From: Planctomycetia bacterium
GTDB lineage: Bacteria > Planctomycetota > Phycisphaerae > Phycisphaerales > SM1A02
DNA length: 64,000 bases
Assembly (NCBI GenBank): GCA_005799495.1
Contig: SYGP01000002.1
Location: 1-64,000, forward strand
Reading direction: 5' to 3'
Positions 10,462 to 17,162 of the stretch are shown piece after piece (the first letter of the stretch is position 1; each line of letters opens with the position of its first letter). The notes below the pieces were generated by a model. That model saw nothing but the letters and a program-made list of their open reading frames with translations. It was not told the DNA's origin and did not search any database. The position numbers and the translations under genes were made by a program.

Positions 10462-11892
10462 TCACTTGGGGGTCGAATGAGCGGCGGTGTTTGGGTCGGA
10501 TGGATGCGCGTGTGCGCGCTGTGCGGCGATCCAACGGAGCGCGTCTCGGAGCTCCGCCTCTGCATGAGAAGCGTAGTCGCCGGCGCTTGGCGCGCGACCC
10601 ATGCGCTGACACACGCCGGTTCCCTCGATGGAAACGCCGCTCGGGGTGCGAAAATCCCCGATGGCGTGCAGGAGGATGTCGCCATTCTTGAGCGGATGCG
10701 TCGTCGCTGGAAGCGCGGCGCCGGCGGTGCAGTGACCGAAGACCTCGGCCCGTCCGATGTCCATGAGTCCGCCAGCGAACATTTCGCTCGTACTCCCCGA
10801 AAGACCATCGATCAGGATTGCCACGGGCGCGTCGATCGTTCCAACCTGCTCGCCACTGCCATTGACCAAGCGCGGATTCGACTGGAAGTCCATGCGCATC
10901 GAGCGACCCTGCATCTGGCCGAGCGAGGTGGGCGTCGCAAGCAGGTGTCCAGCCACACCACTCACCATCAGGGCGATGCCCCCTGGATTCCCGCGCAGGT
11001 CGATGACCAGCGCGTCGACATCGCGGAAGCCGAACAGTGCAGCATCGATCTGGGGTGCGAGGGCCGGCATCCAAATGGTGAAGGTCAGAAGTCCCACGCG
11101 TCCAACCTGTGCGGGGTCGACGCCCAAAGCGGCAATCTCCGCTGGATCCAAGACCCGCGCATTGCACGAAGCCGCCATCGGTGGGAGGTTCCCGAACGCG
11201 ACGACCTCCCCCGGCGGCGCATCGAAAGTGAAGCGCGCCGTCTGTGCCACACCAGCGGTGTCCACGAAATCGATGCTCGGACTCATGCCTGGACGCCCCC
11301 CAAGGAACATGTTGACGATGCGGTCCCGCGTACTGCGCTCCAGTGCAGTGCGCGGCGGCGAAATCTCTGCAAGGAGATCGTCGACCGAGTCTCCTTCACT
11401 GCGGAGTACGCGCCAGCCAGGACGAATGCCGGCGTTGAACGCTGGGCTGCCCGGCAGCACGCGCGTCACGATCGGAGCGCCATCGAGCACCTGCACGGTC
11501 ATGCCCGACCAACCCCCGACGGCAGATTCGCTGCCGGCAACGGCGTTGGGAAGGATCGCGAAGTGACTGTCGCCCAGCGTCTGCATCATGTCCTGCAGCG
11601 TGGCGCGGAATGACTCCAATGTCGTTGCAGCGATGGCGCGCTCCCGAAAGACCAGTCGGGCGTCGTTCCATGACCCCTGATTGATGGATGGATCAGGATG
11701 CGTATCCCGAATGATGGTCCACACCTGATCGAATGTGTCTGCCTGCAGCAACGCACTCGACTCTTCCGCGGGCGGATGCGTCAGCTGCCTCGCGGCATGG
11801 CTTGGCATCTGCGACTGCGATGCGCATCCGAGCGCGTGCGAGACGAGCAGCACAGCCACCGAACACACCAAGTGAAATGCAGCGCGTCGCAT
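10462..11892 (-). CDS. S41-family (C-terminal processing-like) protease, exported
   Basis: 476 residues. Signal sequence with a possible lipoprotein Cys at residue 23 (ALGC), then a helical domain, a PDZ-like part (VQVLDGAPIVTRVLPGSPAFNAGIRPG cut as VLPGSPAFNAGIRPGWRV), and the S41 core: DVDALVIDLRGNPGG and the catalytic GLSGSTSEMFAGGL, where the Ser in GSTSE is the expected nucleophile. It acts on periplasmic or envelope proteins. It ends 27 bases before the LolA-like gene and may head that operon. A TACACT box lies 14 bases before the ATG, so the leader, if any, is short. Confidence 0.88.
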   Translation of the reverse strand: MRRAAFHLVCSVAVLLVSHALGCASQSQMPSHAARQLTHPPAEESSALLQADTFDQVWTIIRDTHPDPSINQGSWNDARLVFRERAIAATTLESFRATLQDMMQTLGDSHFAILPNAVAGSESAVGGWSGMTVQVLDGAPIVTRVLPGSPAFNAGIRPGWRVLRSEGDSVDDLLAEISPPRTALERSTRDRIVNMFLGGRPGMSPSIDFVDTAGVAQTARFTFDAPPGEVVAFGNLPPMAASCNARVLDPAEIAALGVDPAQVGRVGLLTFTIWMPALAPQIDAALFGFRDVDALVIDLRGNPGGIALMVSGVAGHLLATPTSLGQMQGRSMRMDFQSNPRLVNGSGEQVGTIDAPVAILIDGLSGSTSEMFAGGLMDIGRAEVFGHCTAGAALPATTHPLKNGDILLHAIGDFRTPSGVSIEGTGVCQRMGRAPSAGDYASHAEAELRDALRWIAAQRAHAHPSDPNTAAHSTPK

Positions 11893-11950
11893 GTCAGGAG
11901 CGGGTCAGTGTAGGTCAACCAGGATCCCTTTCCTCCTCCACGGTGTCCGA

Positions 11951-11972
11951 TTCATCCGTCTATCCGGATGAA
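11951..11972. promoter_or_regulatory. Operator-like inverted repeat upstream of metH
   Basis: TTCATCCG and CGGATGAA, a perfect 8-bp dyad around a 6-base spacer, ends 3 bases before the metH -35 hexamer. The position suits a regulator site. It is too short, and lacks the flanking helices, to be a SAM or cobalamin riboswitch. Confidence 0.5.
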
Positions 11973-11975
11973 CGG

Positions 11976-12004
11976 TTGAATGAAGCGCGGCTCGCTGCTA
12001 TTCT
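11976..12004 (+). promoter_or_regulatory. metH promoter, probably leaderless
   Basis: -35 TTGAAT (11976-11981), a 17-base spacer, and -10 TATTCT (11999-12004) that ends 7 bases before the metH ATG. The transcript would begin at or next to the start codon. This is the best complete example of the leaderless pattern in the window. Confidence 0.6.
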
Positions 12005-12011
12005 CTCCGCC

Positions 12012-15000
12012 ATGCCGCGCACATTTCTCGCGAATCTCGATGCGCGAACGCTCGTCTTCGACGGCGCGATGGGTACATCCATCCACTCGTGCGCAGACTG
12101 CACGCCTGCTGACTACCTCGGTCGTGACAATTGCACCGACATCCTTGTCCGATCGAGACCAGATCTGATCCAGCGGATCCATGAGTCTTTCCTCGCGGCG
12201 GGAGCGGATGTGGTGGAGACGGATTCGTTCGGGTCCAACAAGCTCGTGGGCGCGGAGTTTGACTCGGAGATGGTGGCGTGGACACGAGACCTCAATGTGC
12301 GTGCCGCGCGGATCGCTCGCGCCGCGTGCGAGCGCTACGACGAGCCTGGGCGACCACGCTTCGTCGCGGGGTCGATCGGTCCTGGCACGAAGCTCATCAC
12401 GCTCGGGCAGACGAAGTGGGAGCTGATGCTTGATTCGTACCGTGAGCAAGCGATGGGGCTCATCGAAGGCGGCGTGGACTGCCTCATGATCGAGACGTGC
12501 CAGGATTTGCTGCAGATCAAGTGCGCAGTCACCGCGTGCATCGAAGCGCTGCATGCATCGGGCAAGAGCGAGCGGGACGTCCCCATTCTCGTCTCGGTCA
12601 CGATGGAGACCACGGGCACCATGCTGCTCGGCTCGGACATCCAGGCGGTCATGAACGCGCTCGCACCGCTTCCGATCGCATCGCTCGGACTCAACTGCGC
12701 AACGGGCCCCGTGGAGATGACGCCGCACCTGGCGGCGCTGAGCAAGGGCTGGAACAGGCCGTTTTCCGTGATTCCAAACGCGGGGCTTCCCGTATTGGTG
12801 GAGGGGCGTACGGAGTATCCGCTGCAGGCGGCGGACTTCGCGACTGCCATTCGGCGATTCACCGAGGAACTCGGCGCAGGGATCGTGGGTGGCTGTTGTG
12901 GAACGACCCCCTCACATATTGCGGCGCTGCGCGAGTTGGTCCCGTGGGGGACGCAGCGCCCTGCGCGCGCGCCAGCAGATGCGCCCGCGGCGTGCTCGAG
13001 CCTGTATGGGCAAGTCGAGTTCCGGCAGGAGAACTCGTTCCTCATCGTTGCCGAGCGGACGAACGCGAACGGTTCGAGGAAGTTCAAGACACTGCTGGAT
13101 GCGGAGGACTGGGACGGACTCGTTGCCATGGGAAAGGAGGAACTCCAGGATGGCGCGCAGGTGCTGGATGTCTGCGTGGACTTCGTCGGGCGTGATGGCG
13201 TTCGGGACATGAGCGAGGTGGTTGCTCGCTTTGCGCGGCAGGTGAACGCACCGCTGATGATCGACTCGACGCAGGCGGATGTCATTGAGGCGGGGCTCCA
13301 GCATTCGCCGGGGCGATGCATCGTGAACTCGATCAACCTCGAGGACGGCGAGGAGCGGATGAACCGCATTTGCCCGCTTCTCAAGCGTTACGGTGCTGCT
13401 TGCGTGGCGTTGACGATCGACGAGGATCCGCAAGCGGGAATGGCAAAGACCGCCCAGCGCAAGTTGCAGATCGCGGAGCGCATCCACGATTTGTTCACGC
13501 GCAAGTGGGGGCTCGACGAGCGGGACCTGATGTGGGATCCCCTGACATTCACGATTGCAACGGGGAATGATGATGACCGCAGACTCGGCCTCGAGACGCT
13601 CGAGGGCATCCGCCTGATTGCCGAGCGATTCCCGCGCTGCTCGATCATTCTTGGGCTTTCCAACATCTCCTTCGGTCTGAAGCCAGCTGCGCGGGCAGTC
13701 CTGAACAGCGTGTTCTTGCATGAAGCGCGCTCGCGCGGACTCACGGCTGCCATCGTGCACATCTCCCGCATCATGCCCCAGTCGCGGATCGACCCCGAGC
13801 ATTGGCAGGCTGCGCAGTGGCTCATCTTCGATCGCCGAGGGGATCGTCGTCCCGAGGGGCAGCCGGACAGTTTCGATCCACTGTTGCACTTCATCTCGCT
13901 CTTCCCCGATGGTGCCGCGGCCCCGCAGGTGGCGGCCCCCGAGACGCTTTCGCTCGAGGATCGCCTGCAGCGTCACATCATCGACGGGAACGATCGGAAT
14001 CTCGAAGGAACGCTCGATGACGCTCTGCAGGTGCACTCGCCGCTCGCCATCATCAATGATCACCTGCTCGTTGGGATGAAGACGGTCGGCGAACTCTTCG
14101 GTGCAGGTCGCATGCAGTTGCCGTTCGTGCTGCAAAGTGCATCCGTGATGAAGAAGGCGGTCGCACACCTGCAGCCGCACATGGAGCGAGTCGGTGCTGA
14201 CGCAAAGCCAAAGGGTTCCATCGTGCTGGCAACGGTCGCGGGGGATGTGCACGACATCGGAAAGAACCTCGTCGACATCATTCTTTCGAACAACGGCTTC
14301 AAGGTGCACAACATCGGCATCAAGCAAAGCCTGACGCAGATCGTGGACGCATGGCGCGCCACGGGTGCGGATGCCCTCGGCATGAGCGGACTGCTCGTGA
14401 AGAGCGTCACGGTCATGGAGGAGAACCTCCGTGAGATGAATCGCATGGAGATCGAGGTGCCGGTGCTGCTCGGTGGTGCCGCGCTCACGCGACACTACGC
14501 GGAGGGACACCTGCGCAAGGTCTATCGCGGAGCGGTGTATTACGGGCGCGATGCGTTCGAGGGGCTTGCCGTGTGCGAAGCCATGGCCAATGGAACGATC
14601 GCCACGATCGAGCAGGAGATCGATGGGCGAATCGCCAAGCGCGCAAGCGTGGAGGCACGCGTGAAAGCAACGGCACTTCGCGCAGCAGCGACGGCCGCAA
14701 ACGACGGATCCTTGGAGAGCGGAACATCGGCAGGGGATGGTGCGGCGGCGTTCCCGGACACGACGGGCAGCGGAGGCGGCAGTGAGGCAGCGCTGCGGCA
14801 GGATCATGCAATCCCCGATCCGCCATTCTTCGGCTCGCGGCTCGCCGAGGGGATCGATCTCGACCTGATCTATCCGTTCATCAACAAGACGGCGCTCTTC
14901 CGTGGGCAGTGGGGGTTCCGCCGCGGCGACATGGATGACCGAGCCTATGAGCGGCATATCGCCGAGGATGTCGAACCGATTCTTGCGCGTCTCCGGGAAG

Positions 15001-15639: not shown

Positions 15640-16488
15640 ATGGATGCGCTCACCGTCATCGGGTTGGCAGCAATGGGCGGGAGCCTCGGATGCGTGCTTC
15701 GTGTGATCATGCGTGATGCGTGTGCTGCTGCGGGGATTTCGAAGTGGCAGGGGATCGCCATCATCAATGTGCTGGGGAGCGCTGGCGCTGGAGCGATGGC
15801 CGCGGCGCATGTTGCCGAGTGGTGGCAGGCGCTGTTGATTGTCGGGCTGTTCGGCGGATTCACCTCCTTCAGTGCCATGGCGCTCGACATCGTTGCGCTC
15901 TGGATCGCGAATCGACGCAAGTCTGCCCTCTTGCTCGGGCTCACGACGACCGTTGCCGCACCATTGGCGGCTGCAGGGGCCGGGGCGGCAGCGACGGCGG
16001 CGCTTCCTCCGATTGCACCGCGCAGAGGCTGGCAGCGCATGGCGGTGCTCGACGCACTGGTCATCATTGGGGGCGGCTCGGTGGGGTGTGCAGCGCGAGC
16101 AACTGTTGTCCTCGCTGCTGAACATCTGGCCTTCCCTGCTTGGAGCGCAACGACGACATGCAATGTCCTCGGCAGTGGACTTGCCGCAGCCGCGGCGCGG
16201 GCGTTGATCGCACAGGAGGAGAGCGGCAAGCCACTCGCGCATCCCGCGCTGCGCGCACATCTGGATCGCCTCATTCTGCTTGGATTCTGCGGAGGACTGA
16301 CCACCGTGAGTAGTCTTGCCGTCGAGATGGCAGAGATGGCACGCGAGAGTTTGCTGCACGCTGCACTCCTCGGTGCGTGCAACGTCGTGGTGGGCTGCGT
16401 CGCAGCGGCGGGTGGGTGGTGGTTGGTCCGCCGGCGTTATCCGCTGCGGGAACGACTCGAACACGAGATCGAGGGGGCCGTGCGATGA
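15640..16488 (+). CDS. crcB: Tandem (fused) Fluc/CrcB fluoride channel
   Basis: 282 residues, about twice a normal CrcB (~125). Two Fluc repeats are visible. Repeat 1 has GGSLGCVLR (13-21), the pore Asn43 in INVLGS and GGFTSFS (72-78). Repeat 2 has GGGSVGCAAR (144-153), Asn175 in CNVLGS and GGLTTVSS (218-225). The family Phe box TTFSTF is TSFSAM in repeat 1 and TTVSSL in repeat 2, so only one Phe remains. Fluoride export through the inner membrane is the expected role. It starts 35 bases after metH and overlaps the next gene by ATGA. No fluoride riboswitch fits the short gap. Confidence 0.85.
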   Translation: MDALTVIGLAAMGGSLGCVLRVIMRDACAAAGISKWQGIAIINVLGSAGAGAMAAAHVAEWWQALLIVGLFGGFTSFSAMALDIVALWIANRRKSALLLGLTTTVAAPLAAAGAGAAATAALPPIAPRRGWQRMAVLDALVIIGGGSVGCAARATVVLAAEHLAFPAWSATTTCNVLGSGLAAAAARALIAQEESGKPLAHPALRAHLDRLILLGFCGGLTTVSSLAVEMAEMARESLLHAALLGACNVVVGCVAAAGGWWLVRRRYPLRERLEHEIEGAVR

Positions 16489-17162
16489 GTGCCCCCGTGC
16501 CAAAGCGGGAGGAGATTCCGCTGCCCACGGCCCTGGCACCGATGGGCGCGGAGGCGATCCGCGCACTGTGGAAGCTGCGGCGCGACTTCTACGCACAGGC
16601 GCACCTGTACGAGGACATTCGCATTCGGGTGCACCGTGCGCTGTCTTGGATGGCAGCTGCGGAGTCGCGAGGACCGGACGCGCGCGACACGCAACTCTTG
16701 GAGTGGTGGGCGGCTGCGGGCTCGTTGTTCGCGCGTTGGAGCGCCGTTCTGCATGCGCCTCTGCCGATCCGTGAGGCGACGGATTCCTTCGCTCGGCAGG
16801 CGATCGAGTGGGACCGCGACGGGCTGTTGCGTGCGCTGTTGCCCGCGCTGCGCGATCGCGCTGGCCCCATGTGGACAGATCCCTATCTCGCCGCTGCTGC
16901 CGGCATGTACGGGGGATCAGGCGGGGAATCCGCAGTTCCAACCGACCCCACTTCGTTCCTCGCGGGATCACTCTGGCGCAGTGGGCTCACGGCACAGCAA
17001 CTGGCCCTCGGCGCAGCGACCTACGCTGGTGCACAGAATCGGATCGCAGTCGATCGATCCGCGTGGCTGCTGCAGCAACTGCTGCCGGCACTCCTGCAGG
17101 TGATCATCGACCACGGATATGTGGACGACTGGGGACCCCTCTGTTCGCCGCCACGCGAGTGA
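16485..17162 (+). CDS. Hypothetical protein coupled to the fluoride channel
   Basis: 225 residues, family not recognised. The ATG overlaps the crcB stop (ATGA), so the two are translationally coupled. It has no signal peptide or membrane segment. It is Trp- and Ala-rich and probably helical (AIRALWKLRRDFYAQAHLYED; ALSWMAAAESRG), with a charged, HTH-free N-terminal half. A cytosolic partner or regulator of fluoride tolerance is possible from context alone. It is convergent with the M42 peptidase, 9 bases apart. Confidence 0.6.
   Translation: MSAPVPKREEIPLPTALAPMGAEAIRALWKLRRDFYAQAHLYEDIRIRVHRALSWMAAAESRGPDARDTQLLEWWAAAGSLFARWSAVLHAPLPIREATDSFARQAIEWDRDGLLRALLPALRDRAGPMWTDPYLAAAAGMYGGSGGESAVPTDPTSFLAGSLWRSGLTAQQLALGAATYAGAQNRIAVDRSAWLLQQLLPALLQVIIDHGYVDDWGPLCSPPRE

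Follow-up and report, generated by a model that had tools for sequence, protein, structure and literature searches.

We found that the fused crcB-crcB gene at 15640–16488 (+) of a 64,000-nucleotide stretch of planctomycete DNA (positions 1 to 64,000 of contig SYGP01000002.1, Planctomycetia bacterium; hereafter the window) is a genuine bacterial two-domain homologue of the Fluc fluoride channels, whose product is probably an antiparallel intramolecular pseudo-dimer that arose from a fused operonic pair. The open reading frame (ORF) runs from an ATG at 15640 to a stop codon at 16486–16488 and encodes 282 amino acids, which contain two complete CRCB Pfam domains (PF02537; whole-protein E 3.8e-28; Table 1). 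Half 1 alone gave E 4.8e-14 and half 2 alone E 2e-15, and the single halves scored 53 and 57.4 bits, both above the Pfam cut-off of 32.9. The protein fell under the NCBIfam TIGR00494 cut-off (63.2 vs 80.45 bits). The fusion is the sole CrcB locus of its source genome; a second CrcB elsewhere in that genome was rejected, as none is present. An internal start yielding a separate half 2 was likewise rejected: an ATG occurs at codon 134 here, but it is unconserved in most orthologues.

The fusion was present in 17 of the 19 genomes of the source planctomycete genus (g1), at 30–79% identity, which is more than a chance occurrence, and missing from the other two. Named matches placed the window protein among freshwater planctomycete metagenome-assembled genomes (MAGs), several of them labelled Phycisphaerae or Phycisphaerales. 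The locus was syntenic (metH-crcB-crcB-unknown-M42 peptidase), with metH upstream of the fusion and, in nearly every locus, a conserved unknown gene and the M42 peptidase gene downstream. In other genera of the same family CrcB was either one gene or a pair of neighbouring genes, and several sister-genus pairs had a 4-nt stop/start overlap. Such pairs might suggest an assembly or frame artefact that merged two genes, but a single open frame with divergent linkers was found in 17 separately assembled g1 genomes; these independent assemblies already refute the artefact, to which we give practically no chance. In a domain tree with modest deep support, the first genes of sister genera g18, g26 and g43 grouped with half 1, and their second genes with half 2. 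The fused gene is related, half by half, to the unfused pairs.

A second fused lineage was found in genus g6 (G023, G130). Like the window locus, the g6 loci have a fused CrcB pair, the same downstream neighbour and metH close by; unlike the window protein, the g6 proteins carry an evident hydrophobic fifth transmembrane helix (TM5) after TM4. The hypothesis that the g1 and g6 fusions go back to one event was neither supported nor rejected (approximately unbiased (AU) test, p 0.33). In a phylum sample of 99 genomes, CrcB occurred in 56, and two domains shared one frame only in G000; the remaining 55 CrcB-bearing genomes had no fusion. Full-length-looking matches in Mesorhizobium were rejected as fusions because they proved to be adjacent gene pairs.

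Topology was read from Lys + Arg counts in the loops of 19 fusions, including the two g6 proteins; these fusions are kin to one another (identity down to about 30–40%) and do not amount to 19 independent observations. Half-1 loops averaged 0.16 Lys + Arg on side A vs 3.84 on side B (the loop-1/loop-3 side), whereas half-2 loops averaged 6.26 on side A (the loop-2/C-terminus side) vs 1.11 on side B. The two halves are thus oppositely biased. The in-minus-out difference was +12.3 for inverted halves; parallel halves gave about −4.9 if both were N-out and about +4.9 if both were N-in. Inversion scored best in all 19 fusions. In genus g1 the half-2 bias was 3–7; the two g6 proteins, where the charges lie in the linker, reached only 0 and 2. 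Unfused sister-genus pairs also showed opposite Lys/Arg bias, the first gene reading N-out and the second N-in. An earlier annotation of this gene (the original prediction) had proposed inverted halves from its Arg-rich stretches, and NRRK (91–94), RRGWQR (128–133) and the C-terminal RRR (264–266) were all present as claimed. The charges in the fusions and the opposite-bias pairs bear out the inversion as likely, as does, indirectly, the structural match described below; taking the inverted arrangements together, with or without a hairpin, we hold it with some confidence to be quite likely. In the explanation we favour, two crcB genes of one operon, already diverged from each other, would have encoded an antiparallel heterodimer, first subunit N-out and second N-in. 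Once fused into one chain, the N-out half 1 and the N-in half 2 would have kept packing antiparallel, as an intramolecular pseudo-dimer.

Pairs of both gene orders (loci L053–L071 and L136–L156) were found within one family: N-out/N-in (first/second) and the reverse. Reverse order occurred in G028, G037, G046, G048 and G058 and, in a related family, in G065; the reverse-order pairs formed a separate lineage.

Modelled with AlphaFold2 (AF2), the window protein and its orthologue L082 reached predicted TM-scores (pTM) of 0.84 and 0.83. For both models the best PDB match by Foldseek was full-length Candida albicans FEX (9op1), aligned over the whole chain (TMq 0.57 for the window protein and 0.62 for L082; root-mean-square deviation (rmsd) 8.4–8.5 Å). 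Comparison values were a TMq of 0.34–0.40 for a single Fluc subunit and an rmsd of about 14–22 Å for unrelated whole-chain matches. FEX-like antiparallel packing of the halves would follow from this whole-chain match rather than from the coordinates.

The original prediction had residues 95–127, described as a 31-residue hydrophobic segment, crossing the membrane twice. The segment counts 33 residues, its final part consists of Ala/Gly/Thr/Pro, and the double crossing did not hold up. AF2 modelled residues 93–113 as one 21-residue helix (an ordinary TM4) and 114–135 as a disordered, low-confidence linker; L082, which has the most hydrophobic linker among the orthologues, likewise gave one helix and then coil. 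A second transmembrane window scored a poor 13.7 in the window protein (Hessa-scale sum), and a TM5 inversion linker between the domains, as in FEX, was not found there. The polar linkers of G001 (HHASSMSSMTASAAGAAPPPCANDRLRHH), G004 (ATPTPAVKACAAAAKLGTTPDPSRRVPHH) and G005 scored 7.3–10 for this window, and those of G001 and G004 are not membrane helices. In G010–G012 and G015 the score was 2.5–2.9, inside the range of these proteins' real transmembrane segments. The latter scores, together with the explicit TM5 of the g6 fusions, favour inversion through a two-helix hairpin at 95–127 (TM4 plus a short TM5, nine transmembrane segments as in FEX). We nevertheless find the hairpin doubtful, given the window protein's own score, the only about 33 residues available to it, the polar linkers, and the single helix followed by coil in both models.

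One fused orthologue, G017 (L047:1045–1869 (+)), had no half-1 TM4 (RRR-AGNGPADGGGKWAAALPD-RRVPH): 54 nt of polar coding sequence stood where TM4 would be, with no hidden frame, and the charge pattern was unchanged despite this in-frame loss. The charges and G017 can be reconciled if the chain crosses the membrane a net even number of times from TM3 to TM1'. The even number that the original prediction's logic required need not be two: zero also fits. Both zero crossings (TM4 outside the membrane) and two (a short hairpin, best in G010–G012 and G015) would be compatible. Half-1 TM4 is not plainly non-hydrophobic, a description that we rejected because it scores like the other transmembrane segments of these proteins. 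Tentatively, half 2 could be inverted without any inversion helix, half-1 TM4, which would line only the degenerate pore, being outside the membrane or lost. The chain would then have 3+4 spans (seven transmembrane segments), and in G017 TM4 is actually deleted. The favoured explanation requires that crossings in the TM3-to-TM1' stretch add up to an even number, with TM4 outside or dipping into the bilayer, or with the linker recrossing non-canonically.

A 250-amino-acid CrcB fusion with another helix order was found in the Puniceicoccales MAG Cf509_bin39 (L107:4923–5672 (+)). It has two TM1-like N-terminal helices, then TM2-TM3-TM4 and TM2'-TM3'-TM4'; TM1' is missing between the halves, and this helix relocation would invert half 2 with only eight transmembrane segments. 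The arrangement occurred in one MAG; other matches among the 29 genomes searched around it were short frames or partial. About 2 kb downstream of the L107 fusion there is a partial CrcB copy.

We then considered the pore residues. The TM1 Gly/Arg motif, TM2 Asn and TM3 GGxTTxS core were conserved in both halves (R21/R153, N43/N175, T75/T221, S78/S224). The Phe-box positions are F77 and M80 in repeat 1 (F-x-x-M) and V223 and L226 in repeat 2 (V-x-x-L). Phe77 is the sole Phe at these positions, so the claim that repeat 1 alone keeps the Phe box was right as to F77 and the lack of Phe in repeat 2, but the second position of repeat 1 is M80. Neither the two Phe per pore of Fluc-Ec2 (F80, F83) nor an intact pore with a Phe from each domain (FEX F96 and F330) was found, the C half having Leu226. 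A missing Phe does not by itself exclude a protein from Fluc/CrcB, because natural members with partial loss are known (PMC5636608). T171, N175 and E229 were (nearly) invariant in half 2 in the alignment of orthologues, and in 15 of the 17 genus g1 members half 1 no longer has the pore Thr; half 1 of G017 retains both Phe-box Phe, Thr and Glu. In FEX, pore II combines Phe 1 of the N-domain box and Phe 2 of the C-domain box with residues of C-domain TM2/TM3/TM4 (PMC5417652). The corresponding residues here are F77, L226 (second-Phe position), T171, N175, E229 and, by alignment, N248 (Ec2 His106 position), and those of pore I are I39, M80 and V223. Half-1 pore residues have drifted, and the residues of the two pores match FEX in the direction of degeneration. 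The main conducting path would be the equivalent of FEX pore II, with half 2 contributing TM2', TM3' and TM4' and half 1 Phe77, and with Leu226 replacing the second Phe; fluoride conduction would be expected from homology.

Unfused pairs of Mesorhizobium and Opitutales (L088–L126) had one Phe per subunit, V-x-x-F with F-x-x-M, which is the FEX pattern. One-pore heterodimers thus occur unfused elsewhere in bacteria.

Several observations weigh against our interpretation. At face value the AF2 helix count of 4+4 means parallel halves. T103 and P108 of TM4 were invariant in the 16-sequence alignment A2 and TM4 conservation (0.54) was on a par with that of TM1' (0.55); TM4 may therefore truly span the membrane, and its deletion is known from one MAG (G017). 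A search of the window and 20 related loci at Rfam gathering thresholds detected no fluoride riboswitch. Lastly, the presumed pore has Leu at Phe-box position 2: in Fluc-Ec2, the F80M mutant is functional, whereas F83L and F83M are inactive (PMC5636608), and conduction by the window protein is for that reason not to be taken for granted.

The helix count and the absent TM5 agree with eight transmembrane segments and parallel halves, which would require two fused chains to pair antiparallel into a four-domain assembly, or else make the protein a relic. Against this stand the opposite charge biases kept in the fusions, the FEX-like whole-chain match and the minimal transport of engineered parallel La1-La2 fusions (PMC3755343). 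Furthermore, without TM4 the second half of G017 would be turned over compared with its orthologues. We consider parallel halves quite improbable. Full-chain structure prediction, proposed earlier as a check on the inversion, supported it indirectly in its best match but not in its helix count. The inactive Ec2 mutants, the lack of a pore that retains both Phe and the two genus members without the gene would also suit a protein that is a fluoride channel no longer, both pores having degenerated and the protein being repurposed or decaying. This seems unlikely given that T171, N175, E229 and R21/R153 are kept across 30–40% identity, that the locus is conserved, and that M. tuberculosis pairs likewise have no Phe at position 2 (PMC5636608).

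Table 1. Features of the fused crcB-crcB gene in window coordinates.
Feature	Position	Strand	Basis
Fused crcB-crcB gene, two-domain Fluc homologue, 282 aa	15640..16488	+	ORF and Pfam
CRCB domain 1, residues 10–115, predicted N-out	15667..15984	+	Pfam, loop charges
CRCB domain 2, residues 141–259, predicted N-in	16060..16416	+	Pfam, loop charges
TM1, residues 3–30	15646..15729	+	AF2 model
TM2, residues 35–55; invariant N43; Ile39 at pore-Thr (Bpe T39) position	15742..15804	+	Alignment, AF2 model
TM3a/b, residues 60–89, TSFSAM; F77/M80 at Phe-box positions, D83 at Glu88 position	15817..15906	+	Alignment, AF2
Arg-rich loop 3, NRRK, residues 91–94, predicted cytoplasmic	15910..15921	+	Sequence, loop charges
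TM4 of half 1, residues 93–113, single helix; T103, P108 invariant in 16 A2 orthologues	15916..15978	+	AF2, alignment
Linker, residues 114–135, low AF2 confidence (pLDDT), RRGWQR at end; length/polarity differ among orthologues	15979..16044	+	AF2, sequences
TM1', residues 136–162	16045..16125	+	AF2 model
TM2', residues 167–190; T171, N175 kept	16138..16209	+	Alignment, AF2 model
TM3', residues 202–234, TTVSSL; V223/L226 at Phe-box positions, E229 kept	16243..16341	+	Alignment, AF2 model
TM4', residues 238–266; N248 at Ec2 His106 position	16351..16437	+	Alignment, AF2 model

The gene at 16485–17162 (+) encodes a 225-amino-acid protein without a Pfam match, and its start overlaps the crcB stop by 4 nt (ATGA). 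Because its homologues sit after crcB fusions or pairs in genera g1, g6, g18, g40 and g43, this recurrence suggests a functional tie to fluoride handling. Upstream, the metH ORF has about 75–95 N-terminal residues (11733–12020 (+)) to which most orthologues did not align; the true metH start probably lies further downstream.

The window protein shares with the Fluc/CrcB family (PF02537; Fluc-Bpe, Fluc-Ec2 and heterodimeric pairs such as La1/La2) the fold of four transmembrane segments per half, the Gly-rich TM1 motif with Arg, the TM2 Asn and the G-G-x-T-x-x-S of TM3. It also has relatives in the form of gene pairs of opposite charge bias. It differs in having both halves in one chain and a Phe box down to one Phe. 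With eukaryotic FEX (yeast Fex1p; C. albicans FEX, 9op1) it shares two fused Fluc domains, an N-domain F-x-x-M and a C-domain that holds most of the conserved pore residues (PMC5417652). In the fused channels of yeast and plants the second half is turned over by an additional membrane helix. The second domain of FEX is inverted by a transmembrane linker (PMC5417652; PMC3755343), whereas the window protein has no such TM5, carries Leu226 at the F330 equivalent, and is a bacterial fusion derived from a local gene pair. The resemblance to FEX put forward earlier was apt for the pore asymmetry but not for the inversion helix or the second Phe, and because both of these were looked for and are absent, the window protein is a Fluc variant and not a member of FEX. 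Fused Flucs have been described in eukaryotes, where the joining of the domains is said to have required 'evolutionary gymnastics to capture a TM helix as an inversion linker' (PMC3755343); we found no earlier report of a bacterial fused Fluc in the literature searched. Here, one bacterial family spans single genes, opposite-biased pairs and two kinds of fusion, one with and one without a fifth helix, and the fusions and several of the pairs adjoin the same neighbour gene. Such a range of gene forms makes the step from pair to inverted repeat directly testable, and the fusion family offers a natural case of topological frustration. If half-1 TM4 does lie outside the membrane, then fusion would have been solved by taking away a crossing and not, as in FEX, by adding one.
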